From the NCBI GenBank assembly GCA_024244665.1, contig JAAEOI010000150.1, positions 29,620 through 93,619 on the forward strand: DNA of 64,000 bases. The letters are read 5' to 3'. The translations under genes were made by a program, and so were the position numbers. Below are positions 33,094 through 45,599 of the stretch, piece by piece. The DNA comes from Bacteroidota bacterium. GTDB lineage: Bacteria > Bacteroidota > Bacteroidia > Bacteroidales > GCA-2748055. The notes under the pieces were generated by a model. It was given only the letters and a program-made list of their open reading frames with translations. It searched no databases and was not told the DNA's origin. Position 1 is the stretch's first letter; every line of letters begins with the position of its first letter.

Positions 33094-35370
33094 TTAGTCC
33101 TTCACACAGCGAACAGAAAATCCAGCATCTTTATCGCGATAGCTTCTTCTTATTTGAGCATTTAAATTTTCAAGGAATCTAAACCAGGTACTTGTACTAC
33201 TTGCTTGTGTGGCTGACCACCAGTAGGTGTACTCATAAATGAAATCACATTCTCCTTTACCGGATATTTTACCAGCTGGCAATGCAGTAAAACCTTTAAT
33301 ATCTGTAGCACCTACATTTGGATCCTGCCAGTGGGAAGTTCCCACTTCTTTGAGCATTCCCCCCTCATCAGAGCCGCGAGAACCTACGTCATCAGCTTCA
33401 GAGGGAGTAAGTCCCAGTTCTATTTCAAGTTCCTTCCACTCTCTATCGCTGGGTAAATGCCAGCCCGAAGGACAGACACCTCTTACACCACTTGGGCTGA
33501 CATCAACAGAACCAGCCCCATTCATTGCAGCTGCCCATGTATAGAGCGCTCCATATTCATCTCCATTTGACGGATCGAATTTATAATAGCAATAAGCTTT
33601 ATCATTTATGTCAATTCCTGTATCCCAGGATATGCTATCAGAAATGTATTGAATTGGAGTTCCATCCCAATATTGTTTAACTTTCAGATTCTCCGCCATC
33701 CATGTCTGTTGCCCAATTTCAACAGTCCGGTAGACATTGCCGTCCCGATCAACAACAGTATTTGGATCGTCGCTTGTTGTGAACTCTTTTGTTAATCCAA
33801 AACCATCACCGGCAGAGTTTGTTGCGTATGCGATCACATAGTAGTGAGTCGATGGTGATAATCCTGATAGTGTTGTAGAGAAGGAGACAGTGCCGTCCTC
33901 AATCGGTACGATGGTTCCGTCTTGCATCAGATCAGATGTGATGCCATAGTAAATACCTTGCTCTGATACTGTGGCACCCCCATCACTGGTAACATTTCCT
34001 CCCACTGTAGCAGAATTTTCTGACACAGAACTGGGTGTGGTTGTTGAGACTTCTGGTTTCTCAATAGTCGATGTGGTTGAAAAGTTAAGGATTTTGCCAT
34101 AGGATGGACCGGCTGAATTGGTGGCGTACGCAACCACATAGTACCGCGTTGAAGGCGAAAGCCCTGAAAGCGTTGTAGAGAATGTGCCCGTTCCATCTCC
34201 AATGGGTAATGCTGTCCCCTCTTGCACCGGATCAGATGAAATGCCATAATATATGCCTCGCCCAAATACTGTGGCACCTCCATCCCTGGTAACAGTTCCT
34301 CCCACTGTAGCTGAAGATTCCATAACTGATTGTGGAGGGCTGGTTTCTACCTCCGGTTTTACGAATGCCTGACCGGTAAGAAAGGAATTTACATTGCCAA
34401 AAGATGTTCCTGCACTATTTGTTGCGAATGCAACAAAATAGTAGTCTGTATCATCTGATAATCCTGTTAGTGTATGGCTAAATTCCCCGGTCCCATCGCC
34501 AACGGTGATCTTAGTTCCATTGTTTGCAGGATCAGTTGATTCCCCATAAAAGATCCCCCTTTCGAATACGGCAGAACCGCCATTATTTAATACATTGCCC
34601 CCTACAACAGCTGAATTAGTCTCAATGGAGTCAGCGGAATTAGTGGATACACTTGGTTCCGAGTACTCCTGACCAGTCTCAAAATTTAAGGTAAGCCCAT
34701 AAGAGGTACCCGCACTATTTACCGCATATGCCACGAAGTAATATTCCACTCCGTTGAGCAGACCTGTAACGGTCGTTGAATAGCTACCTGAAGAATTCTC
34801 AATAGATAGTTTCGTTCCTGTTCCAATTGCATCGGAAGAAGTTCCGTAAAAAACTCCAGTCTCAATAATGGAGGCCCCTCCATCATTAGTAACCTCTCCA
34901 CCCAGAATCGCGCTGTTTTGTAAAACGGATTGTGCCGGTTTAGTGATTACACTTGGACCAGTCACATTGCTTCCAGTTAAGAAAGTCAATGAGGCACCGT
35001 AGGTAGTGGAGTCACTATTTGTTAAAAATGCCCGGATGCTGTAATTGGATGCCGGGGCTAATTCGGCTATGGACTGTGAATAATCACCTGTGGATGACGG
35101 TTCCCCCAATTCAACAATCCCATCATTATTTTCTTTTGTTGGCAACCGTTCAATGGCATATACAAAACCATGCTGATTGATCCCTTTTGTCCCTAGATCT
35201 ACTATGGTGGCATCTGCAGTCCATGTGGTTGGTGTATTCTCGGATACGCTATTCGTCTCGACCTTAAAAATTTTCTCTGGTTCAAATTTTTTACAACCGT
35301 CTATGGAAATTGATACTCCAAAAACAATGATTGAGATTACCCACAGTTTATATTTCTGACTCAACTTCAT
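33094..35370 (-). CDS. FISUMP-domain lipoprotein with five fibronectin-like repeats (cassette A)
   Basis: A 758-aa lipoprotein. I prefer the start at 35370 (MKLSQKYK) over 35385 because it gives a compact signal with lipobox IDGC. The body has five tandem repeats of about 95 aa, the first divergent, with the core pattern 'SATVGG.VT.DGGATV...GIYYG'. The last ~200 residues form a Fibrobacter-succinogenes-major-paralogous domain: 'DRDGNVYRTVEIGQQTWMAE' at its start, 'CPSGWHLPSDREW' in the middle, and 'GFSVRCVKD' at the end. It has the same domain order as the 750-aa protein at 43347. It is the last gene of a minus-strand cassette, after a caspase-like protease. Function unknown; probably outer-membrane. 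Confidence 0.85.
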   Translation of the reverse strand: MKLSQKYKLWVISIIVFGVSISIDGCKKFEPEKIFKVETNSVSENTPTTWTADATIVDLGTKGINQHGFVYAIERLPTKENNDGIVELGEPSSTGDYSQSIAELAPASNYSIRAFLTNSDSTTYGASLTFLTGSNVTGPSVITKPAQSVLQNSAILGGEVTNDGGASIIETGVFYGTSSDAIGTGTKLSIENSSGSYSTTVTGLLNGVEYYFVAYAVNSAGTSYGLTLNFETGQEYSEPSVSTNSADSIETNSAVVGGNVLNNGGSAVFERGIFYGESTDPANNGTKITVGDGTGEFSHTLTGLSDDTDYYFVAFATNSAGTSFGNVNSFLTGQAFVKPEVETSPPQSVMESSATVGGTVTRDGGATVFGRGIYYGISSDPVQEGTALPIGDGTGTFSTTLSGLSPSTRYYVVAYATNSAGPSYGKILNFSTTSTIEKPEVSTTTPSSVSENSATVGGNVTSDGGATVSEQGIYYGITSDLMQDGTIVPIEDGTVSFSTTLSGLSPSTHYYVIAYATNSAGDGFGLTKEFTTSDDPNTVVDRDGNVYRTVEIGQQTWMAENLKVKQYWDGTPIQYISDSISWDTGIDINDKAYCYYKFDPSNGDEYGALYTWAAAMNGAGSVDVSPSGVRGVCPSGWHLPSDREWKELEIELGLTPSEADDVGSRGSDEGGMLKEVGTSHWQDPNVGATDIKGFTALPAGKISGKGECDFIYEYTYWWSATQASSTSTWFRFLENLNAQIRRSYRDKDAGFSVRCVKD

Positions 35371-35413
35371 TATTTGTTTACTCATCTACTCGTTTTAATT
35401 TTATAGATCGAGG

Positions 35414-36559
35414 TTATTTCCGTATAAATATGAAATCTCCTCCCTGATCACCTACATTCTTAATCTCACCGTATTGTGGGTCTGCCTCGCTGTTATTAAG
35501 GACAGCAGTTCGAAGGCTGTAAAAAAGATCTGATGCTGCGTAATATTGATCTTTATTCTTCCGCAGTCTTTCCAAAAGGAATTTGGCAAATTGACTCTTA
35601 TCAGGTACTTCACTCAACCTTCCACTGGTCATTGCTTTTCTGCTAGGCAATTCATACAACTTCTCAATGGCCAGGGGAGCATCTGCAAAAGCGGCCCTGG
35701 TTGTGAAAATAGACCCACTGAAACATGCATCAGTAATGAGCAATGTGTGCTTTGAACCAATTTGCTTAATATAATCCACAAGCTGACTATTTCCAAACCA
35801 GTTTGCTGAGGAGATTTTTCTGGCATTTGAAGGTAACCAGTATCCAATGTTTGCATCTGCATCGAAGTTACCATGGCCGGCATAAAAAATGAGCAGATTG
35901 TCGTTGGAGCTTACTACACGAGACAAATGCTCCAGTGCGAGAATAATATCCTCACGTTTTGCATTCTCAATAAACTGGATATTGTCTTCCTCGAATGTAT
36001 ATCTTTCAGTTAAGACTTCATATAATTTCACTGCATCAGGTACTGGATTTTGCAAGGAGTTTAGGGCTGGATCTATGTATCTGTTGATTCCTATAATAAG
36101 CCCGAAATATTTCGATTCCTGAGATACTTTTTCAGCCAGCGATACTTCAATTGGAATATATTTGATGTTAAATCTCTTCTCAATAAATTCATTATTGCTA
36201 TCAATAGCACCTATAATAACCGTATTATTGCCAGGAAATAATTCGAGATGTTGAGTAAACTTTCCTTTCTCATTTGGTTCAATAAATTGAGAATTTATCA
36301 CAACAGATTCAAGCTGGTCCATACCAGAGATAGCTCCGTATATTAGCAAATCAGACTTGCTTGTTGTGTATTCGGATTGGCTATTGAGAGATGGGGATAG
36401 AATAATGATTTCTGGTGTTTTATTGCTCTCTGAACTAGGAAATGACACTTCCTTCTTCTCAATTTTCAGGTAGCCTTTTTCACTTTTGATTGTCTGGCCG
36501 TAAATACTCAGGCTGAAAATCAAAAGTATAAGGAGGATTGATAATTTCCGGTTTTTCAT
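35414..36559 (-). CDS. secreted caspase-like protease (cassette A)
   Basis: A 381-aa protein from ATG 36559 (a GTG nine bases upstream is the alternative). It has a signal peptide ending near 'IYGQ', a bacterial Ig/glucodextranase-B-like domain (about residues 50-135, 'FPGNNTVIIGAID'), and a C14 caspase-type domain. The catalytic pair is His229 in 'FYAGHGNFD' and Cys279 in 'ITDACFSGSIF'. The S1-forming stretches cannot be assigned by eye. Both residues fall at the same positions in the paralogue at 42156, so both copies look active. It should act in the periplasm or on the surface. It is encoded between a membrane protein and a FISUMP lipoprotein. Confidence 0.88.
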   Translation of the reverse strand: MKNRKLSILLILLIFSLSIYGQTIKSEKGYLKIEKKEVSFPSSESNKTPEIIILSPSLNSQSEYTTSKSDLLIYGAISGMDQLESVVINSQFIEPNEKGKFTQHLELFPGNNTVIIGAIDSNNEFIEKRFNIKYIPIEVSLAEKVSQESKYFGLIIGINRYIDPALNSLQNPVPDAVKLYEVLTERYTFEEDNIQFIENAKREDIILALEHLSRVVSSNDNLLIFYAGHGNFDADANIGYWLPSNARKISSANWFGNSQLVDYIKQIGSKHTLLITDACFSGSIFTTRAAFADAPLAIEKLYELPSRKAMTSGRLSEVPDKSQFAKFLLERLRKNKDQYYAASDLFYSLRTAVLNNSEADPQYGEIKNVGDQGGDFIFIRK

Positions 36560-36583
36560 AGTTGACACATTTTTTCAGATTAT

Positions 36584-37402
36584 CTAAAAGGTGTATCGAA
36601 GTGCAACCATTGGAGCCTTTAATTCAAATTCATAGTATGGCTCTACAGTGATAGAATTTTGTGCAGAGGATGATTTATTATTGAGTTTTGCTACTCCCAG
36701 AACATTCCAGGCAATATCAATGATCCATACCCCAATTGCTGAATATGCCAATGTTTTGGATAAATTGTCCTGCGATATGGATTTCTCATAGCGTAATTCT
36801 CGATCAGTGATATCAGAGGCTGACAAATATTCATTTGTGTAAGTTGAGTGAGCCATCCTGTTTAATACAATGGATCCACCAATGCATCCATATCCAACGA
36901 CTCCTTTAATCCAGTGTGGTTTACCTGTCACTCTTGATAATCCGATGCCTGGGAACAGAAGTGATTGCACCATAATGGAGGCGGTTTTTACCTGCGCATG
37001 GTTAGATGTGCTTTTATCCGTTTTAGTAACAGGAATACTTTCTTCCAATTCAGCGAAAACCTCAACAGATATACCCTCATCAAGGGCTATATTATCTGCC
37101 TTCGGATCCCAAATAATCTCTTTGCCTTTTCCTCCATCAACCTTATGTCCTATGTCGCCAGTTAAAGACCTGGCATTTAAAGAATTACCATTAGAGTCGT
37201 ACACTTTGATCCAGATATTATATTGATTATTATTACTGTGGCTATTGATATCATACCGGATACTAACCTTGTCCCCAATAAGTTGAAGGCTTGGGGTCGA
37301 AATATCTGCCGTATCCTGTCCATAGCCATTGAAATTTATACAAATCAAAAAGAGAATGATCTGTAGAAACAATCTTAAATTGGTGAGTTGTATTTGCCTC
37401 AT
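36584..37402 (-). CDS. envelope protein, first gene of caspase cassette A
   Basis: A 272-aa protein starting at ATG 37402 (MRQIQL), with a signal peptide ending near 'FNGYGQ'. Two parts are visible. One is a beta-rich domain (about residues 25-110) with 'SLTGDIGHKVDGGKGKEIIWD', a pattern I associate with other Bacteroidota envelope proteins. The other is a region with three or so hydrophobic segments beginning 'QSLLFPGIGLSRVTGKPHW'. The C-terminus ends in an aromatic residue (MVALRYTF), like the last strand of an outer-membrane barrel. It is clearly homologous to the protein at 41329. No function is known; its fixed position ahead of the caspase gene suggests a partner role. Confidence 0.75.
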   Translation of the reverse strand: MRQIQLTNLRLFLQIILFLICINFNGYGQDTADISTPSLQLIGDKVSIRYDINSHSNNNQYNIWIKVYDSNGNSLNARSLTGDIGHKVDGGKGKEIIWDPKADNIALDEGISVEVFAELEESIPVTKTDKSTSNHAQVKTASIMVQSLLFPGIGLSRVTGKPHWIKGVVGYGCIGGSIVLNRMAHSTYTNEYLSASDITDRELRYEKSISQDNLSKTLAYSAIGVWIIDIAWNVLGVAKLNNKSSSAQNSITVEPYYEFELKAPMVALRYTF

Positions 37403-37641
37403 ATGAATAAAATTGACCATAGATCAACCATTGAAGATACAAAAAAATAGAGGATAGCTAAGATGATCTGATTTAAGAATTTGATGAATCGTTTGTTGAC
37501 CCTGATTAATGAACCTGATGCTCAAAGCTTATTAGGCAACCAATTTTCCTAAAAATCAGTCATGTTTCTAATTAAATCAGAATCTAATATAAGATTGTTT
37601 TCTGTATACAAGGTAGTTGTAGAAGTTGAGTGCAATATTGA

Positions 37642-37733
37642 AACAAACTGAGGTCCTATTGCGTAACAAACTGAGGTCCTATTGCGTAACAAACTGAGGT
37701 CCTATTGCGTAACAAACTGAGGTCCTATTGCGT
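37642..37733. repeat. four perfect tandem copies of a 23-bp unit
   Basis: Units at 37642-37664, 37665-37687, 37688-37710 and 37711-37733 are identical (each starts AACAAACTGAGG and ends CCTATTGCGT). The array lies about 100 bp upstream of the lyase-like start, and 62 bp before a -7-like box. Length change in such arrays by slippage can alter transcription. Because 23 is not a multiple of 3 and the array is non-coding, an effect would be regulatory. It could also be an assembly collapse or expansion. Confidence 0.95.
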
Positions 37734-37794
37734 AATAATAGGTATTAAAAACTGAACGGAATATTGACAATACCTGAAATAGATAATATTTCTG

Positions 37795-37802
37795 TACTTT
37801 TG
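37795..37802 (+). promoter_or_regulatory. possible Bacteroidota -7 box of the lyase-like gene
   Basis: TACTTTTG at 37795-37802 matches the TAnnTTTG -7 consensus of Bacteroidota primary-sigma promoters, 33 bp before the ATG at 37836. No well-spaced TTTG -33 element is present; the nearest TTG (37764-37766) is 28 bp upstream. The tandem repeats lie further upstream. Confidence 0.4.
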
Positions 37803-37835
37803 TAAGTTCTGTTCAAAGCTTTTTTAGTTGTGAAG

Positions 37836-38339
37836 ATGGTGATATACAGGAGATATGTGTTTTTTCTCAGAAGTTTAATTCTGGGATTGTGCCTATTGTT
37901 GTCCGTCCCCGATCTGGTTGCCCAGAGGGACGATGGCGGCAGGCCTGATTTTTCTGTAATTATAAAAGAGAACGTGGAACCATGGCCTATGTCCAGCTTT
38001 GATGTCATTTTTAAGGCGGATATGGAAGAGGCCACTCCAGGTGGATATAAAAGGGATGAATGGCTTAACGCATGGGATCATCCACCCTATGAAAATCGTC
38101 TGGATCAGACGACTATTCTTGAGAAGGACGGTTCCCAGGTATTTAAATGGACCTATCCTGAGGGCACTTTTGGACCATCTAATGGCGGAGGTCAGTGGGA
38201 AGTTCACCTGGATGGACATCACGAGGAGATTTATATGTCATATAACATGCTCCTCAGGCCCGCATTTGATTTTGCACTCTCAGGTAAATTCCCAGGACTA
38301 AGGGCGGCCCGAATGAAGCGGGGCCTGGAGAGGGAGTAA
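37836..38339 (+). CDS. N-terminal fragment of a frameshifted polysaccharide-lyase-like T9SS protein
   Basis: A 167-aa fragment. ATG 37836 gives a signal peptide with a hydrophobic core and 'DLVAQ'; a GTG at 37830 is in frame. The mature part ('FKADMEEATPGGY', 'KWTYPEGTFGPSNGGGQW', 'FDFALSGKFPGL') resembles the first half of PL14-like lyase or related jelly-roll domains. After 'GKFPGLR' the frame goes off at a GGG run near 38302-38304 and stops at 38339. Adding one G there restores 'RGGPNEAGPGEGVTWDDGF' and continues straight into the next fragment, so the two were one gene of about 1060 codons. Confidence 0.8.
   Translation: MVIYRRYVFFLRSLILGLCLLLSVPDLVAQRDDGGRPDFSVIIKENVEPWPMSSFDVIFKADMEEATPGGYKRDEWLNAWDHPPYENRLDQTTILEKDGSQVFKWTYPEGTFGPSNGGGQWEVHLDGHHEEIYMSYNMLLRPAFDFALSGKFPGLRAARMKRGLERE
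38301..38304 (+). other. probable -1 frameshift site in the lyase-like gene
   Basis: The run AGGG followed by CGGCCC breaks the frame. One extra G restores an uninterrupted reading frame with the conserved-looking sequence on both sides ('KFPGLRGG' then 'VTWDDGFSNGLAFQG'). It may be a sequencing or assembly error, a true mutation, or a slippage site; the tract is only three G long, which argues against high-frequency switching. Confidence 0.8.
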
Positions 38340-38407
38340 CATGGGATGACGGATTTTCAAACGGACTGGCATTCCAGGGCAAAAACGATCCCAGGGGGAA
38401 CCTGTGC

Positions 38408-41014
38408 ATGTATCTCTACTATCAGGATATGATAGGAGGGTACGGGAATCTTTATAAGTGGAAGGATCCTTATTCCTCGGAGAATTTGTTTGTATTCAAT
38501 AAGGATAATATAAATGAAAGATGGTACAACATTACCATACGAATGGTTATGAATTCTGTCAACTCGGATGGAAGTGGCGGCAATGCCGATGGGCTAATGG
38601 AAGGGTTTATTGATGGGAAACTGATGTCATCATGGGGGGGCATAAAATTCAGGAACCATGATAACATTGGGATTGATGCGATGAAGGTTTATTCATTTTT
38701 TGGTGGGGGCGCGAACTCTTCTTCAGTCAGAAATGAGTGGGCCATATTCGATGATTTTTATCTTTTTACCTATACTGACGGTGTTGATGTCCCCAGGGGC
38801 CGCCAGCAAAGCCCTGATGGAAGGAACCTGAACCTTCCCTGGGTCAAAGGTGCGGATGCTCCTCCTCCTCCACTGAGTGAAGTTCCGGACACGGAAACGC
38901 CTGAGACTCCAACCAATATTGCCATCAATGACATAGGTTCCACCTCTATGACCCTTACATGGGACGCGTCAACTGATAATACAGGAGTAACCGGATACCG
39001 GGTTTTCGTTGATTTTGATCAGCCTGTCACTGTTACCTCCGGTACCAGTTATATATTGGAGGAGCTGATTCCCGGTACAAACTATGTGATGAATGTTACA
39101 GCCTTTGATGCTGCAGGGAACGAGAGTGAAAGATCTGCTACAGTCGAGGGGGAAACCACCTCTTTTGATGAGGAGCCCCCAACGGTTCCTGATGGCCTTG
39201 AGGTGGTAAGTTTTTCAGGTTACTCGATTCAATATGAATGGAATCCGTCATCTGATAATGAGGGGGTTGACATATACCGGATTTTTTTTGATGATGTATG
39301 GATCAGTGATCAGCCCGGAACTGGTTATACTGCACCTAACCTGGAGCCGGATACAGAATACAAGTTCAATGTCCAGGCTTTCGATGCAGCAGGCAATTTC
39401 AGCGCTCTGTCAGATCCGATTGTCCAGACTACCAGTGGACCAGACACTCAGCCTCCCTCCAGACCGGATGGTGTGGAGCCAACATCGGTTACTGAGACTA
39501 CAATTTCGATCCAATGGAATGCCTCAACTGATAATATTGGTGTCGAACAGTACCTGATTTACTTGAATAATGCACTGAAGGAGACATCAAACAGTACGAG
39601 CGAAACACTGGGTCTGTTGCAACCCGGTCTTGATTATTCCCTTGAGGTGAGTGCCGTTGATGAGGCTGGAAATGAAAGCACCAGGTCTGCTGTGATTATT
39701 GTGACCACAAATAATGACGATATTACAACAGAGCCCTCCTTACCGAATGTGGCCATATCCAATATCAAGGACAATACAATCAGGCCAAGTTCAGTCTCCC
39801 AGCTCAGTTCCTTGGGGTTCACGGAGTTGAAGAATTACGGAATAGAAATATATGAAAAGGATAATCCTTCGGTAGCGCCCATTGTTCTGAAAGGACTTGA
39901 AACAGATTCAGTGCTGAATTTAGGGAGGAGCACTGACGGTCTGGAGGTGTTATATAATTTTGCAGAGGGGGAGGGCAATATAGTCCATGATATTTCCGGG
40001 AATGAACCTGCCCTGGATCTGCTCATTAACAGGGAGGGAGTTACCACCGAATGGCTCACGGGGCAGGGGCTAAGGATCCTGGGAAGTACAATTTTGGAGT
40101 TCCCTGGAACACCTCAAAGATTGACCCAATCTCTCGCTTCATCCAATGAGATTACCCTTGAGGCATGGGTTAAACAGGAGCAGATAGAGCAATCCGGACC
40201 TGCAAGAATTTTCACGCTGTCGTCGGGAAGCTCGGCCCGTGCTGTAACCCTTGGGCACGAGGGCAATAAGGCTGCATTTGACTATGTAATCAGACTCAAC
40301 ACTTCCGGTTCCAGTGTAAATGGTATCCCCGAGTTAATAACTGAACTTGAATTTACCACTCATAGTTTGCATCACGTGGTTTTCACACGTGATACTCAGG
40401 GTGACGAGAAAATCTACATCAATGGCCTCCGGCTGGCCAATGGAATGAGGAGTGGTGATTTTTCCACCTGGGATGATGATTACCACCTGGCCATTGGAAA
40501 TGAAATTGATATGGGGCGCCCCTGGATAGGGATCATCTACCTGGCTGCCATATACAACAGGGCAATCAGGGAAAGCGAAGTGGAAGACAATTATGAATCA
40601 GGATTCGGGCGCATTGACTTTGTCAGTGAACTGGATACGCTTTCCGCAAATACCTCTTATGAACTGGTCCCTTTTGTCACCACCGATCAGGGCATCGTTT
40701 ACGGAGAAACCAGGGATTTTATATATAAGAATGTGCTGTTAACCGATTCCTTTATGGCTATATATCCCAATCCTAATGATGGGAGGTTCTTTATCAAGGT
40801 TACGAACAATGATGAGAACCTGAAGTCAGTTATCCTCAGGATAGCTGACTTTACCGGGCAGGTTCATTATACCGATGACCTCGATTTTTCAGAGGGCCTG
40901 GTGGAGAATAATTTCGAAATATTGTTGCCTCCCTCCTTATCTGATGGTATGTATTCCATCATGCTGATTGCAGGCAACAAGTCTGTCGCAGAGAAAATGG
41001 TGCTGCTCAGATAG
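38408..41014 (+). CDS. C-terminal part of the frameshifted lyase-like T9SS protein (fn3 ×3, LamG, sorting domain)
   Basis: An 868-aa piece; ATG 38408 is internal to the original gene, and coding sense in this frame runs back to about 38305. In order: the rest of the lyase-like jelly roll ('MYLYYQDMIGGYGNLYKW', 'GFIDGKLMSSWGGIKF', to about residue 150); three fibronectin III domains (about 160-440, each 'W.(A/P)S.DN.GV..Y'); a LamG-like domain (about 515-730, 'ITLEAWVKQEQ'); and a T9SS type A sorting domain ('AIYPNPNDGRFFIKV' to the end). Without the N-terminal fragment it lacks a signal peptide and should not be exported. It lies between two inverted caspase cassettes. Confidence 0.82.
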   Translation: MYLYYQDMIGGYGNLYKWKDPYSSENLFVFNKDNINERWYNITIRMVMNSVNSDGSGGNADGLMEGFIDGKLMSSWGGIKFRNHDNIGIDAMKVYSFFGGGANSSSVRNEWAIFDDFYLFTYTDGVDVPRGRQQSPDGRNLNLPWVKGADAPPPPLSEVPDTETPETPTNIAINDIGSTSMTLTWDASTDNTGVTGYRVFVDFDQPVTVTSGTSYILEELIPGTNYVMNVTAFDAAGNESERSATVEGETTSFDEEPPTVPDGLEVVSFSGYSIQYEWNPSSDNEGVDIYRIFFDDVWISDQPGTGYTAPNLEPDTEYKFNVQAFDAAGNFSALSDPIVQTTSGPDTQPPSRPDGVEPTSVTETTISIQWNASTDNIGVEQYLIYLNNALKETSNSTSETLGLLQPGLDYSLEVSAVDEAGNESTRSAVIIVTTNNDDITTEPSLPNVAISNIKDNTIRPSSVSQLSSLGFTELKNYGIEIYEKDNPSVAPIVLKGLETDSVLNLGRSTDGLEVLYNFAEGEGNIVHDISGNEPALDLLINREGVTTEWLTGQGLRILGSTILEFPGTPQRLTQSLASSNEITLEAWVKQEQIEQSGPARIFTLSSGSSARAVTLGHEGNKAAFDYVIRLNTSGSSVNGIPELITELEFTTHSLHHVVFTRDTQGDEKIYINGLRLANGMRSGDFSTWDDDYHLAIGNEIDMGRPWIGIIYLAAIYNRAIRESEVEDNYESGFGRIDFVSELDTLSANTSYELVPFVTTDQGIVYGETRDFIYKNVLLTDSFMAIYPNPNDGRFFIKVTNNDENLKSVILRIADFTGQVHYTDDLDFSEGLVENNFEILLPPSLSDGMYSIMLIAGNKSVAEKMVLLR

Positions 41015-41328
41015 TGATCTCCAACCTTATTTTTTGCAGATCATTCTTATATCAATGACCGGATTTTATATGTAAACGACCTGTTTCCGGTAACTGACAT
41101 TTTTTTAGCTTAGATGAGTACTGACTCCAATATCCGGAAACTCCCTTGGTAAAGACGTATAAAAGGCTTGTAATTAGCGGGTTATGTATAGAATTGTTTC
41201 TGCTTTCAAACTCTTTGCAACCATTGGTTAATTGATTGGTCAGATTGATCAAATATGTTCGATTCAGGTTGGTGTAATAATGCTGCTTATAGCTATCTTG
41301 TCCAAAATAAATAGAAACACATCCGGAT
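41015..41328. other. 314-bp intergenic region before caspase cassette B
   Basis: A non-coding AT-rich region. Its second half (41219-41282) resembles the region before the 2652-aa gene (45787-45852): both contain a CAACCA-type start, an ATGG/TTGG-rich stretch, the string GATTGATCAAATATGT, and then a TTGGT close to TAAT. This may be a shared promoter or leader element. No terminator or clear -7 box was seen. Confidence 0.5.
41219..41282 (+). promoter_or_regulatory. intergenic element shared with 45787-45852 (copy 1)
   Basis: A stretch of about 64 bp that matches the sequence upstream of the giant SGNH gene, with an exact core GATTGATCAAATATGT (TGATCA palindrome inside) and similar flanks ending in TTGGT-TAAT. 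It lies 47 bp before the first gene of cassette B. A common regulator or leader is inferred; the element is not a known site to me. Confidence 0.45.
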
Positions 41329-42132
41329 ATGTCACCTCCTTCCAGACTTGTTTATTCATTATTCTCGGTATGGCTGGTCATGCAATTCTCATTTGGAACA
41401 GCCCAAATCCGGTCAAACATCTCAGCACCACGAGTGTCTATCAGTGGAGAGGATATTGAGATTTTGTTTGATATCAGCACACCTGATGTTGTTGATTATT
41501 TCAGGATTTGGATTGTGGTAACGGATTCACTTGGTAAAAATATCAAGCCTGAATCCCTTCATGGCGATATCGGCCCACAGGTATCACCGGGAGCAGATAA
41601 GAAGATCATATGGAAAGGTGCGGTAAGGGATGTAGATCTGAGGAGTGGTGTTAATATTCAGGTGCAGGCCGAAGTGGCAGGATCCGATCAAAAAGATGAA
41701 GAACCGATACAGGAGGATGATCCTCAGGTAAAAATGGGTTCGGTCATAGCGCAGTCTCTTATTCTTCCAGGCCTTGGCCTCTCCAGAGCAACGGGGAATC
41801 CACATTGGATAAGGGGTGGGCTGGGGTACCTGGCTGTTGGATCAGCAGTTGTGTTTGATATATCTTCACAGAATAGCTATGATCAATATCTTCTGGAGAA
41901 CGATGTAGCTGAAAGAGATGCACTGTATAGCAAATCAGTCAGTCATGGCAATTTGTCAAAAGTTATGTTTGGCTGCACAGCCATGATTTGGGTTGGTGAT
42001 ATTATATGGAATGTTGTTGCTGTTAAAAAACTAAATGCCGTATCTGCGGAAAAGAGAATGGGATTATCAATATCACCCACCTATGAACCTGTGTCAAAAA
42101 CCCTCCTGTTTGCAGTTAAGTATAAGTTTTAG
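41329..42132 (+). CDS. envelope protein, first gene of caspase cassette B
   Basis: A 267-aa paralogue of the protein at 36584-37402. Signal peptide ending near 'SFGTAQ'; a beta-rich domain with 'SLHGDIGPQVSPGADKKIIW'; a spacer rich in Asp/Glu (about residues 118-132); then 'IAQSLILPGLGLSRATGNPHW', two to three hydrophobic segments, and the C-terminal 'LFAVKYKF'. Most of the conserved positions in cassette A are kept. The gene is 23 bp before the caspase gene. The family is not recognised; a role as membrane partner of the protease is inferred from the conserved gene order in both cassettes. Confidence 0.75.
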   Translation: MSPPSRLVYSLFSVWLVMQFSFGTAQIRSNISAPRVSISGEDIEILFDISTPDVVDYFRIWIVVTDSLGKNIKPESLHGDIGPQVSPGADKKIIWKGAVRDVDLRSGVNIQVQAEVAGSDQKDEEPIQEDDPQVKMGSVIAQSLILPGLGLSRATGNPHWIRGGLGYLAVGSAVVFDISSQNSYDQYLLENDVAERDALYSKSVSHGNLSKVMFGCTAMIWVGDIIWNVVAVKKLNAVSAEKRMGLSISPTYEPVSKTLLFAVKYKF

Positions 42133-42155
42133 CAAATCGGTATAAATCTACTGAT

Positions 42156-43301
42156 ATGAACTTTAAAATTTTTTCTATCCTCTTAATCACATTGTTGCTC
42201 GCCTCAGTTATGAGTGGCCAGACCCTCCGGAGTGAAAAGGTGTTTTTCAAGCTGGAGGAACCAAAACAGCGATCAGTTGAATCTTCGGTAAAGGAGGTTC
42301 CGGGAATCACATTCCTGTCACCCTCTGTTAACGAAAGTGAGGTTTTCGATACCGACCAGCCTGAAATCCAGATCCTGGCACAGATCAGTTCTTCCACCGG
42401 ACTAGAATCGGTTGTTTTGAATTCCCGGATTGTGGAGCCCTCAAGCGATGGAAAGGTTTCCCAACGGCTTGATCTCTTTCCCGGTGAGAATACCATAATT
42501 ATTGGAGCTCTGGCCAAGGGAGGCGGATATTCTGAAAAAAGGATGCGGATCAAATACTCACCCAGGCAAGTTTCTTTGGCTGAGAAAGTGAATAATGAGT
42601 CGCTGTATTATGCATTGATTATCGGAATTGATAATTATATGGATCCGGCCATTGCTTCGTTGGACAATGCAGTCAGAGATGCAAATCGAATAAAGGAGGT
42701 GTTATTGGCCCGCTATACTTTCAATAAAGGAACTGTTACTTTGCTTGAGAATCCCAGGAGAGAGGATATTATTTATGCATTGGAGAATCTTGCAAGGCGT
42801 GTGACTACCAAGGACAACCTGTTTATCTACTATGCAGGGCACGGGAATTTTGATAAGAAAGCCAATATTGGTTATTGGCTCCCGTCCAATGCAAGGAAAA
42901 TATCATCAGCAGAGTGGTTTAATAACAGCCAGCTGGTTGACTATCTGAAGAGAATTGATACTAGACACACACTTTTAGTCTCTGATGCCTGCTTCAGTGG
43001 ATCAATTTTTACAATGAGGACTGCATTTTCTGATGCTAGCATGGCTGTTGAGAAGTTATACGACCTCCCAAGCCGGAAAGCAATGACAAGTGGAAGAGTA
43101 GTCGAGGTCCCTGACGAAAGTGCATTTTCCCGGTATTTGATTGATCGCCTGGCAAAAAATAAGGATCTTTATTACTCTACCAATGATTTATTCAATAACA
43201 TCAGGACTGCTGTGATTAATAATAGCGAAACTGTTCCTCAATATGGAGAAATTAGAAATGTGGGTGACGAGGGGGGAGAGTTTATTTTCATCAGGAAATA
43301 G
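42156..43301 (+). CDS. secreted caspase-like protease (cassette B)
   Basis: A 381-aa protein, the same length as its paralogue at 35414. Signal peptide ending near 'VMSGQ', an Ig/glucodextranase-B-like domain (about 50-135, 'FPGENTIIIGALA') and a C14 caspase-type domain with His229 ('YYAGHGNFD') and Cys279 ('VSDACFSGSIF'). The two copies share long stretches such as 'IGYWLPSNARKISSA' and the C-terminal 'GG.FIFIRK', but differ at many positions, so the duplication is old. The enzyme would work outside the cytoplasm. No inhibitor or obvious substrate gene other than the neighbours is present. Confidence 0.88.
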   Translation: MNFKIFSILLITLLLASVMSGQTLRSEKVFFKLEEPKQRSVESSVKEVPGITFLSPSVNESEVFDTDQPEIQILAQISSSTGLESVVLNSRIVEPSSDGKVSQRLDLFPGENTIIIGALAKGGGYSEKRMRIKYSPRQVSLAEKVNNESLYYALIIGIDNYMDPAIASLDNAVRDANRIKEVLLARYTFNKGTVTLLENPRREDIIYALENLARRVTTKDNLFIYYAGHGNFDKKANIGYWLPSNARKISSAEWFNNSQLVDYLKRIDTRHTLLVSDACFSGSIFTMRTAFSDASMAVEKLYDLPSRKAMTSGRVVEVPDESAFSRYLIDRLAKNKDLYYSTNDLFNNIRTAVINNSETVPQYGEIRNVGDEGGEFIFIRK

Positions 43302-43346
43302 CTTGCAAATTTACTGAAAGGTATTGCTTTTATAACTGAAATTATC

Positions 43347-45599
43347 ATGAAAAGGATTACATCACTTCTGTTATTCGTTTGTTTACCACTTTTCATTATT
43401 GAATGCTCAAGGGAAGAGCAGGTAAGGGTAATGAAGGTTGAGACTCAATCTGTAAGTAACATAAGTTATTATTCATGTTCGGTTTCGGGTCAAATTATTG
43501 ACCAGGGCGATGAACCCAGCTTAATTTACGGTTTTTGCCTTGATGAGCTTGGAAATCCGTCACTTGAAAGTGGAAGAGTCATACAGGTTGATTCAAAAAA
43601 TTCTCAGGGGGAATTCTCAGCCGATATAAGCGGATTGATTTGTGAAACAGGCTACTCAGTAAAGGCATTTGCCAGGAACTCCAAAGATACGGTCTACGGG
43701 ATACAGAAAGATTTTTCAACACAGGAATGCATTTCTCACTCAGAGATTTCAACCAGTGCAGTGTCAGGAATAACCTATAATTCTGCTATTGGGGGAGGAA
43801 CCATCACCAGTGATGGAGGAAATGCCATTACTACCCGCGGGATCTGCTGGGGAACCTCCCCTGGCCCATCCTTATCAGGTAGTTTCAGCGTTGAGGGTTC
43901 AGGAACAGGATCGTTTACCAGTACCATGAACGGCCTGAACTGTGAAACGCTCTACTATGTCCGGGCTTATGCTACAAATGCCCTGGGAACTGTTTTTGGA
44001 GAACAACTAAGCTTTTCCACCAGTGAATGTCCTTCCAATTTGCCATCGCTTACTACCTCAGCAATTGGTAACATAACGGAAAATAGTGCGAGTGCGGGTG
44101 GGAATGTAACAAGTGATGGTGGAAAAGCAATCACTGCAAGAGGAGTATGCTGGAGTATGTCTCAAAATCCTTCCATATCAGATGCACATTCAAGTGATGG
44201 GGAAGGTACCGGGATCTTCAACAGTACATTGGACGGGTTAAGTTGCAAGACAGCATACTATGTAAGGGCCTATGCAAGTAATGAAGCGGGAACTGCATAT
44301 GGGGACCAGGTTTTCTTTGAAACAAGTGAATGTAGTGTTGACCTTGCCACTGTTACTACCTCTGGAATTACAAGTATCACTCAGACAACTGCTCTGGGAG
44401 GTGGATCTGTGTCAAATGATGGAGGTGCCTCAATAACGTCGAAAGGTATATGCTGGAGTACTTCGTCCACTCCGAGCACATCTGATTTCACAACGTCAGA
44501 TGGTTCAGGATCAAGTAGTTTTTCAAGCGTAATGACAAGTTTGAGCTGTGGAACTACCTATTATGTAAGGGCCTATGCTGTAAACAGTGCAGGGACCGGC
44601 TATGGTGATCAGCTAAGCTTCCAGACCACCTCATGTCCGGTTCCACCAACGGTGTCAACCGCTTCCATAAGCTCTGTAACGGAAACAACTGCAACAGGAG
44701 GCGGAAATGTAAGCTCCGATGGAGGCGCTCAGGTAACAGATGTCGGAGTATGTTGGGGGCTGACACATAATCCGACCCTCGATGACTACAATACCGATGA
44801 TGGATCAGGTGTAGGGACCTTCACAAGTAGTATAACAGGGCTTTCCTGCAGTGAGACTTACTATGTCAGGGCCTATGCTATCAATTCAGCGGGTACTTCT
44901 TTTGGTGAGGAGAAGGTATTAATTACTGAAACCTGTACGGTGACTGATATTGATAATAATGTTTATCCGACTGTAAAGCTCGGGGAACAAATATGGATGG
45001 CTGAAAATCTAAAGGTTACTCACTATTCTGACGGAACAGCCATATCTCTTGAATTGGATGACACAGCATGGGATGATCTTTCAGAGACTGAAAGGGCCTA
45101 TTGTTATCAGGAGGATGTCGTATCCAACTTGGATAATTATGGAGCGCTTTACAATTGGGCAGGGGCAATGAATGGTTCATCAAGCAGCAATTCTAATCCA
45201 AGTGGGGTCCAGGGGGTATGTCCATCCGGATGGCACCTTCCGAGTGATAGTGAATGGATGGAACTCGAAAGTTACCTTGGTATGACTTCCACCGAAAGAA
45301 ATAAAATGGAGAACTGGAGAGGTACTGATGAAGGTGAGCGATTAAAGATCACCGGGACCACTTACTGGGATAGTCCAAATTACGCCACTAATTCGACCAC
45401 CTTTTCAGTCCGTGGAGGAGGATTCCAAAATACTACTGGAATCTATGGCAACTTTAAAAGGAATGCAGATATTCATAGTTCGACAGATTCAGACTATAGT
45501 GTTATTTTCCGTGGATTCAAGCACGACCTCACGGGTGTATTCAGAGGAATCTATAGCAAAACAGCCGGATTCTCAGTAAGGTGCGTGAAGGATAAATAA
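43347..45599 (+). CDS. FISUMP-domain lipoprotein with five fibronectin-like repeats (cassette B)
   Basis: A 750-aa lipoprotein with lipobox IIEC (Cys20). Five repeats of about 95 aa follow, the first divergent, each with 'GG.V.SDGG..IT.RG.CW' and ending with a Cys-containing 'L.C.T.YYVRAYA.N..GT.YG' segment; these paired cysteines are absent from cassette A. The C-terminal ~200 residues are a FISUMP domain ('IDNNVYPTVKLGEQIWMAE', 'CPSGWHLPSDSEWMEL', 'GFSVRCVKDK'). It is the third gene of the cassette, 45 bp after the caspase gene. Possible roles are surface adhesin or protease substrate; neither is shown. Confidence 0.85.
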   Translation: MKRITSLLLFVCLPLFIIECSREEQVRVMKVETQSVSNISYYSCSVSGQIIDQGDEPSLIYGFCLDELGNPSLESGRVIQVDSKNSQGEFSADISGLICETGYSVKAFARNSKDTVYGIQKDFSTQECISHSEISTSAVSGITYNSAIGGGTITSDGGNAITTRGICWGTSPGPSLSGSFSVEGSGTGSFTSTMNGLNCETLYYVRAYATNALGTVFGEQLSFSTSECPSNLPSLTTSAIGNITENSASAGGNVTSDGGKAITARGVCWSMSQNPSISDAHSSDGEGTGIFNSTLDGLSCKTAYYVRAYASNEAGTAYGDQVFFETSECSVDLATVTTSGITSITQTTALGGGSVSNDGGASITSKGICWSTSSTPSTSDFTTSDGSGSSSFSSVMTSLSCGTTYYVRAYAVNSAGTGYGDQLSFQTTSCPVPPTVSTASISSVTETTATGGGNVSSDGGAQVTDVGVCWGLTHNPTLDDYNTDDGSGVGTFTSSITGLSCSETYYVRAYAINSAGTSFGEEKVLITETCTVTDIDNNVYPTVKLGEQIWMAENLKVTHYSDGTAISLELDDTAWDDLSETERAYCYQEDVVSNLDNYGALYNWAGAMNGSSSSNSNPSGVQGVCPSGWHLPSDSEWMELESYLGMTSTERNKMENWRGTDEGERLKITGTTYWDSPNYATNSTTFSVRGGGFQNTTGIYGNFKRNADIHSSTDSDYSVIFRGFKHDLTGVFRGIYSKTAGFSVRCVKDK

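Follow-up and report, generated by a model that had tools for sequence, protein, structure and literature searches.

Recurrent association of an exported caspase-family protease with a membrane-associated partner and a tethered lipoprotein in Bacteroidota: a candidate envelope proteolysis module

The window, which is the whole stretch of 64,000 nucleotides that was analyzed, contains two divergently transcribed sets of three genes (cassettes) on either side of a larger central gene. Each cassette consists of a gene for a predicted membrane-associated partner (E), a gene for a caspase-family protease with an export signal (C) and a gene for a lipoprotein (L). This layout was part of the original prediction, and all six open reading frames (ORFs) were recovered where it had placed them and on the same strands. 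The features are as follows.

33094..35370, minus strand: L1, lipoprotein with the tether CKKFEPEKI, five Fn3-like repeats and a FISUMP head (PF09603, 153.5 bits; lipobox)
35414..36559, minus strand: C1, predicted exported caspase-family protease with an N-terminal Ig-like domain (PF00656, 45.8 bits, cut-off 21.4; catalytic residues)
36584..37402, minus strand: E1, ORF, homologue of E2 (35%), in the E family alignment A3; anatomy by homology to E2: signal peptide, Ig-like domain, DUF5683-like helical hairpin, C-terminal beta hairpin, terminal Phe
37642..37735, no strand: 4.1 perfect copies of the 23-bp repeat AACAAACTGAGGTCCTATTGCGT, between E1 and the central gene; not claimed as a member of the module
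37830..41014, plus strand: central PL14/Fn3/LamG/T9SS-CTD gene, frameshifted; judged to lie outside the module
41329..42132, plus strand: E2, anatomy as E1 (ORF; alignment A3; AlphaFold2 model)
42156..43301, plus strand: C2, predicted exported caspase-family protease (PF00656, 65.8 bits; fold matches MALT1 and metacaspases)
43347..45599, plus strand: L2, lipoprotein with the tether CSREEQVRV, five Fn3-like repeats and a FISUMP head (PF09603, 127.4 bits; lipobox)

The genes of each cassette are closely spaced, with intergenic gaps of 15 and 28 nt between E and C and of 23 and 45 nt between C and L (longest-ORF starts), which fits two operons. Export signals had been predicted for all six proteins and were found in each of them: in the E and C proteins the signal peptide is followed by a Gln, and both lipoproteins have a lipobox. 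The five repeats and the FISUMP domain ascribed to each lipoprotein were likewise confirmed, the former as five Fn3-like repeats per protein with a custom profile, the latter as PF09603 matches over the cut-off. Between the two copies in the window, identity amounts to 35% for E, 58% for the caspase and 41% for the FISUMP lipoprotein, and the corresponding distances (C 0.43, E 1.29, L 1.70) show that C is by far the most conserved part. In the caspase tree C2 joins P0005 and P0006 (100/99), and C1 is added only after that (96/61). This separation of C2 from C1 indicates that the duplication in the window is old. The inverted pair was also considered as a functional unit in itself and rejected, as the only other divergent pair among the loci compared is L007.

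Both C proteins lie above the cut-off of the Peptidase C14 family (PF00656) with the scores listed above. His229 and Cys279, which had been named in both caspases, are present, and D175, H229, D277 and C279 are invariant in all 31 cassette caspases compared. The best Foldseek matches of the C model are MALT1 and metacaspases, with E-values down to 4e-10, at a modest model confidence (pLDDT 70.5) that is weak around the active-site Cys. D175 is aligned with a metacaspase Asp, and D175 and D277 are presumably the two Asp residues that form the basic S1 pocket of metacaspases. Due to the invariance of both residues and this presumed role, C is predicted to cut after Arg or Lys (P1). Against the model of the EACC1-associated caspase, NF047832, the two C proteins scored 70.2 and 76.9 bits, below its NCBIfam cut-off of 140, and PADLOC matched only the generic caspase model PDLC02987, over positions 3-139 of 453. 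No match of C to the LapG family was found with Pfam at an E-value of at most 0.1. C2 homologues number 3958. A regular expression for the Q-rule site, a Gln after a small residue at the end of the signal peptide, found it in 30 of the 31 aligned caspases; Gln is reported to be usually exposed by signal peptidase I in Bacteroidetes (PMC5837995). The export signals thus support the predicted location of the caspase in the envelope and not in the cytoplasm. In one E+caspase-like fusion (L285, 6045-7574) the catalytic Cys is apparently replaced by Ser (DASF), and this protein may be a pseudo-caspase.

Neither E1 nor E2 matches a Pfam family above the cut-off. DUF5683 (PF18935) gave weak matches in 8 of 19 E proteins at an E-value of at most 0.1 (best 1.2e-5), E2 being without a match. 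The AlphaFold2 model of E2, calculated from 19 sequences (pLDDT 84.5, pTM 0.45), starts with a signal helix, followed by an Ig-like sandwich at about 30-116 and a helical hairpin at 160-237, and has a beta hairpin at its C-terminus. Helix 2 of the hairpin is hydrophobic, helix 1 weakly to moderately so, and the loop between them is acidic. E ends with a Phe in 26 of 31 cassettes, and this terminal Phe is OMP-like. In E proteins fused to a protease the profile match ends at position 232-251 of 264, short of the terminal beta hairpin; among solo E proteins 91 of 101 rows reach position 259 or more, these rows coming from overlapping loci and being partly non-independent. The Gln column after the signal peptide is invariant in all 19 E proteins of alignment A3, even though the regular expression chose an earlier Gln in at least two of them (L005, L010). 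E and C therefore both appear to follow the Bacteroidetes Q-rule, and E is predicted to be exported and membrane-associated. PDB relatives of the E model were not detected by Foldseek at an E-value of at most 0.001, an absence that shows little, and the VIA-align rows for the model are Ig-like or generic helical. GGDEF and EAL domains were absent from Pfam scans of the 19 E proteins, E1 and E2.

The L proteins combine a lipid-anchored tether, a stalk of repeats and, often, a head. FISUMP (PF09603/TIGR02145) is above the cut-off in L1 and L2, and PF09603, a Fib_succ_major match, occurs in 29 of 61 cassette L proteins (E-value at most 0.001). Other heads are Laminin_G_3, SBBP propeller, Lcl_C, FGE-sulfatase, kelch and Kre9/KNH, with one to three members each. 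One L ORF has 0 repeats and the others have between 1 and 14. In eight complete L ORFs nothing follows the stalk, and seven of these adjoin an E+protease fusion; the 15 L ORFs beside such fusions comprise seven headless proteins, seven with a head-sized tail and one ambiguous case. The existence of headless L proteins shows that ligand sensing is not obligatory. T9SS C-terminal domains (CTDs) are absent from L1 and L2 and from the families listed for 61 L proteins (25 of 27).

A lipobox is present in all 57 cassette L proteins that have their own N-terminus, according to a custom hydrophobicity rule. The tether was compared between these 57 of 64 L ORFs (seven without their own N-terminus were dropped; alignment A4 holds 61 of the 64) and 12 of 21 FISUMP ORFs located elsewhere in the same genomes (nine without a lipobox were dropped). 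Counted from the lipid-bearing Cys, position +3 is Lys or Arg in 49/57 cassette proteins versus 5/12 controls, position +4 is hydrophobic or Pro in 45/57 versus 0/12, position +5 is Asp or Glu in 48/57 versus 5/12, and position +8 is Arg or Lys in 33/57, including both L proteins of the window, versus 1/12. The whole motif occurs in 22/57 cassette proteins and in none of the 12 controls (Fisher p 0.007), and the combination of +3 and +5 in 42/57 versus 2/12 (p 0.0004), but the cassette proteins share descent in the tether region and the counts are not independent. The tether C-x-K-hydrophobic-D/E is conserved among L proteins, unlike that of the 12 other FISUMP lipoproteins. It resembles the surface-lipoprotein export signal reported as C-X-K-(D/E)2-X (PMC5080379) without matching it, as position +4 is hydrophobic or Pro and not acidic.

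Co-occurrence of the three families was examined by searching 393 genomes of one order with the E profile A3 at an E-value of at most 1e-25. At least 53 E places were found in at least 36 genomes, and in a phylum-wide search of 395 genomes only the query genome matched among the matches listed; both counts, based on no more than 6 scored candidates per genome, are lower bounds. E was present in 7 of 28 genomes of the family of G001, the family-level searches around G433 and G549 covered three and four genomes, and a protein search with A5 gave two matches. A caspase domain lies on the same strand within 3.5 kb at 42/53 E places, three of these caspases being more than 2 kb from E (L173, L189, L196). 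The L stalk is found within 5 kb at 35/53 places and a FISUMP domain within 7 kb at 11/53. The predicted co-occurrence was thus found in other genomes, with both partners at 30/53 E places. Among the 32 places away from a contig edge, 27 have a caspase, 26 an L stalk and 24 both. The A3 set is not fully independent because A3 was mostly built from caspase-adjacent E genes; five of the 53 places are in genomes that were entered via caspase loci (G001, G011), and without them the E-anchored tally is 37 and 30 of 48. Of the L-stalk genes in 60 E-anchored loci, 46 are no more than 5 kb from E and one is at a greater distance; the corresponding numbers of caspases are 44 and one. The sequence compared amounts to 521 kb near E and 145 kb far from it. 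In L001-L080 a single stalk gene was found in 398 kb distant from E and C. Starting from caspases (80 loci and the window), E profile matches were obtained at 42/81, mostly in the gene directly upstream on the same strand or in the N-terminal part of the caspase ORF itself. Two or more E places occur in at least 9 of the 36 genomes. The conclusion that E, C and L form one unit is well supported.

Some places deviate from this composition. E and L occur without a recognised caspase at L152, L153 and L290, as judged from stop-to-stop frames in which only caspases were sought. Eight of the 53 E places have no recognised protease; six of them are flagged as near a contig edge (including L190), and at another, L150, the N-terminal portion of the caspase profile still matches. 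L154 was discarded as a caspase-less cassette, since an intact caspase frame is present. At L286, L291, L292 and L293, E-like genes adjoin lipoproteins whose tether, by eye, contains RDNP; a caspase is found only at L292, and the adjoining lipoproteins of L286, L291 and L293 (by eye) have no match to the stalk profile.

The original prediction held that gene order had been kept under selection. The composition of the cassette is indeed kept, but order and fusion state vary across genomes. The recurrent arrangements are E-C-L, L-E-C (L159, L160, L161, L170, L171, L175) and L beside an E+protease fusion (L156, L181 and L183-L185 among others), and the order E-L-C occurs at L189 alone. E is fused to the caspase in some loci, caspase and FISUMP form a single ORF at L080 and L248, and an E-type domain is joined to FISUMP in one ORF at L245. 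The single ORF of L248 (1520-3208) begins with a signal-peptide-like stretch. L151 was rejected as a further caspase+FISUMP fusion: it has a C-like start but no Pfam caspase match. The E part at L155 and L187 continues into TPR repeats and a trypsin-like domain (Trypsin_2, PF13365, 6.9e-23 and 3.6e-24), and that at L157 into TPR repeats and a retropepsin-like gag-asp protease domain (PF13975, 2.3e-10). The contig of L190 ends where, by eye, a trypsin-like domain seems to start, Pfam detecting only TPR there. The L stalk adjoins E at L155, L157 and L190, and at L187 the stalk profile matches no more than a fragment close to the contig end. With two trypsin-like domains and one retropepsin-like domain fused to E, the core of the module looks like E, L and a protease. 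The catalytic part appears to be exchangeable, the non-caspase types being represented by three loci. The cassette caspases themselves form clades that very long branches separate. E and L partners accompany every one of these clades, and some of the deep joins carry a risk of long-branch artefacts.

The distance matrices of the three parts are correlated over 31 cassettes (E-C 0.36, C-L 0.30, E-L 0.35; p at most 0.0009). In the 24 cassettes with the order E-C-L the correlation of E and C is 0.35 (p 0.03), and the other pairs have p values of at most 0.0007. Nearest neighbors agree between E and C in 15/31 and between C and L in 12/31 cassettes. Both the likeness of the tethers and the correlated distances could stem from common descent.

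A frameshift near 38300 divides the central gene into 37830-38339 and 38408-41014 and reflects either real decay or an assembly error. This T9SS lyase-like gene had been proposed as a partner of the cassettes. It was rejected as a component because it is frameshifted and represents no recurrent flanking family: each such family is confined to 6 or fewer of 69 loci, and a recurrent fourth gene was not found among them. Several neighbors were recorded on the side. An additional gene family is shared near loci of the L-E-C type (L159, L160, L171, L172, L175, L177); its member at L160 has a weak DUF4384 match below the cut-off, and further neighbors are shared by four to five of these loci. In the window, positions 4147-33024 by eye resemble an exopolysaccharide cluster (sugar transferase, chain-length protein, glycosyltransferases, epimerases, sulfotransferase), and a sugar transferase (PF02397) is likewise located downstream of E at L150 and L164. 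Downstream of L2 (45922-59898) follow two very large ORFs of 2652 and 1999 aa with signal-peptide-like starts, the 2652-aa ORF containing, by eye, many Fn3-like repeats. A crude motif look for signs of DGR control, limited to the ORFs of the window, revealed no RT-like ORF.

The reading preferred here, which is a tentative one, is an envelope-tethered module of regulated proteolysis that has L as its client and works in a Lap-like manner. The exported, membrane-associated E would hold or control an exported protease. This protease would usually be of the caspase fold and cut after Arg or Lys, and more rarely be a trypsin-like or retropepsin-like domain fused to E. The client would be the lipid-anchored stalk L, often carrying an interchangeable head of a ligand-binding type. 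L could be released or matured by cleavage close to its conserved N-terminal tether, and the basic residue at +8 may be guessed as the site after which L is cut; alternatively, L could be the trigger of the protease. In an E-C-L complex the interface is predicted to lie at the tether and the first Fn3 domain. The genome sequences show that the parts stay together, carry export signals, occur as fusions and can exchange the protease, and that the active-site residues are intact and the tether is conserved. Substrate, mechanism and direction of control are inferred, and the role of L as client is suggested by its tether together with the co-occurrence. Since the caspase can be replaced by serine and aspartic proteases on the same anchor, it seems to be proteolysis itself, rather than caspase signaling, that is kept by selection. 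More tentatively still, the retention of E anchor and L stalk and the exchange of head and catalytic part may point to a Bacteroidales-type general switch for surface release or surface sensing, with a caspase working outside the cytoplasm and with parts unrelated to those of the Lap system.

Part of the evidence also suits other explanations. A constant tether and stalk under variable heads would be appropriate for a processing recognition site, and all three protease types could serve a maturation or assembly factor in which E and C process L or neighboring secreted proteins constitutively, as PorU does, and no switch exists. Such a factor is nevertheless unlikely, given the L proteins found without a recognised caspase (L152, L153, L290) and the lack of a T9SS CTD in L1 and L2 and among the listed families of the L proteins (25 of 27). 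The diverse heads (FISUMP, FGE-sulfatase, Lcl_C, LamG, kelch, SBBP propeller, Kre9/KNH) and the genomes with two or more E places (9/36) would be compatible with a contact sensor, in which a ligand on the L heads activates C and the output is envelope cuts or cell death. Eight complete L ORFs are headless, however, seven of them beside E+protease fusions, PADLOC matches only the generic caspase model and a recurrent fourth gene is missing, which makes a contact sensor with a lytic or signaling output rather unlikely.

The E+L pairs at L152, L153 and L290 could in turn reflect a surface display unit of E and L that employs the protease for quality control only. This is improbable in view of a protease at 45/53 E places (42 caspases and three others), and of the eight remaining places six are near a contig edge and L150 keeps a partial caspase match. 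Caspases are numerous, with 3958 homologues of C2 and a report of 28 caspases in one Bacteroidetes genome (PMC3501461), so that chance neighborhood or hitch-hiking has to be considered as well; the contrast in density near and far from E, the fusions and the several orders of the same parts render it very improbable.

Bacterial caspases have been discussed mainly as cytoplasmic effectors of death or immunity. The cassettes place an apparently exported caspase family in a defined genetic context with recurrent membrane and lipoprotein partners, which opens its substrate and function to direct tests. The exchange of proteases and of heads, the fusion of E with C and the conserved tether go beyond what had been predicted for the window. 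In the open-access (PMC) literature, which leaves most subscription papers outside its scope, no description of the E-C-L module was found; no open-access PMC paper combines caspase, Bacteroidetes and FISUMP, and no two of the terms DUF5683, Fib_succ_major, FISUMP, peptidase C14 and caspase family protein occur together in one.

Among known systems, PorU and the gingipains (clan CD, T9SS) are exported cysteine proteases of Bacteroidota that act on surface proteins. C differs from them in matching PF00656 and not C25, and L1 and L2 lack a T9SS CTD. With ortho- and metacaspases C shares PF00656, the His-Cys dyad and the caspase fold. In a survey of caspase homologues, 30 of 671 were assigned to an extracellular category, 33 were joined to FGE-sulfatase, and varied operons were noted (PMC3501461); the fixed E and L partners and the replacement by other protease classes are absent from the part of that survey covered here. 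Orthocaspase-like domains are reported at the N-termini of cyanobacterial DGR variable proteins (PMC7517822), and Fib_succ_major is counted among DGR target domains (PMC4159848), whereas the cassettes encode caspase and FISUMP protein in two separate genes, both with export signals. The closest analogy is offered by the LapD-LapG-LapA system of Pseudomonas, in which a membrane regulator accompanies a periplasmic cysteine protease, and a surface adhesin is targeted at its N-terminus (PMC3032545); control of a periplasmic protease acting on an adhesin N-terminus by a membrane protein is also described in PMC4694147. E would correspond to the membrane partner, C to the exported cysteine protease and L to the adhesin as a lipid-anchored repeat protein. 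C belongs, however, to C14, E is without GGDEF and EAL domains, L is a lipoprotein with a putative cleavage, and no Pfam family is shared. The module may thus work like the Lap system without belonging to it, and, if this is true, would be the Bacteroidota equivalent of the control that Lap-type systems exert on surface proteins.
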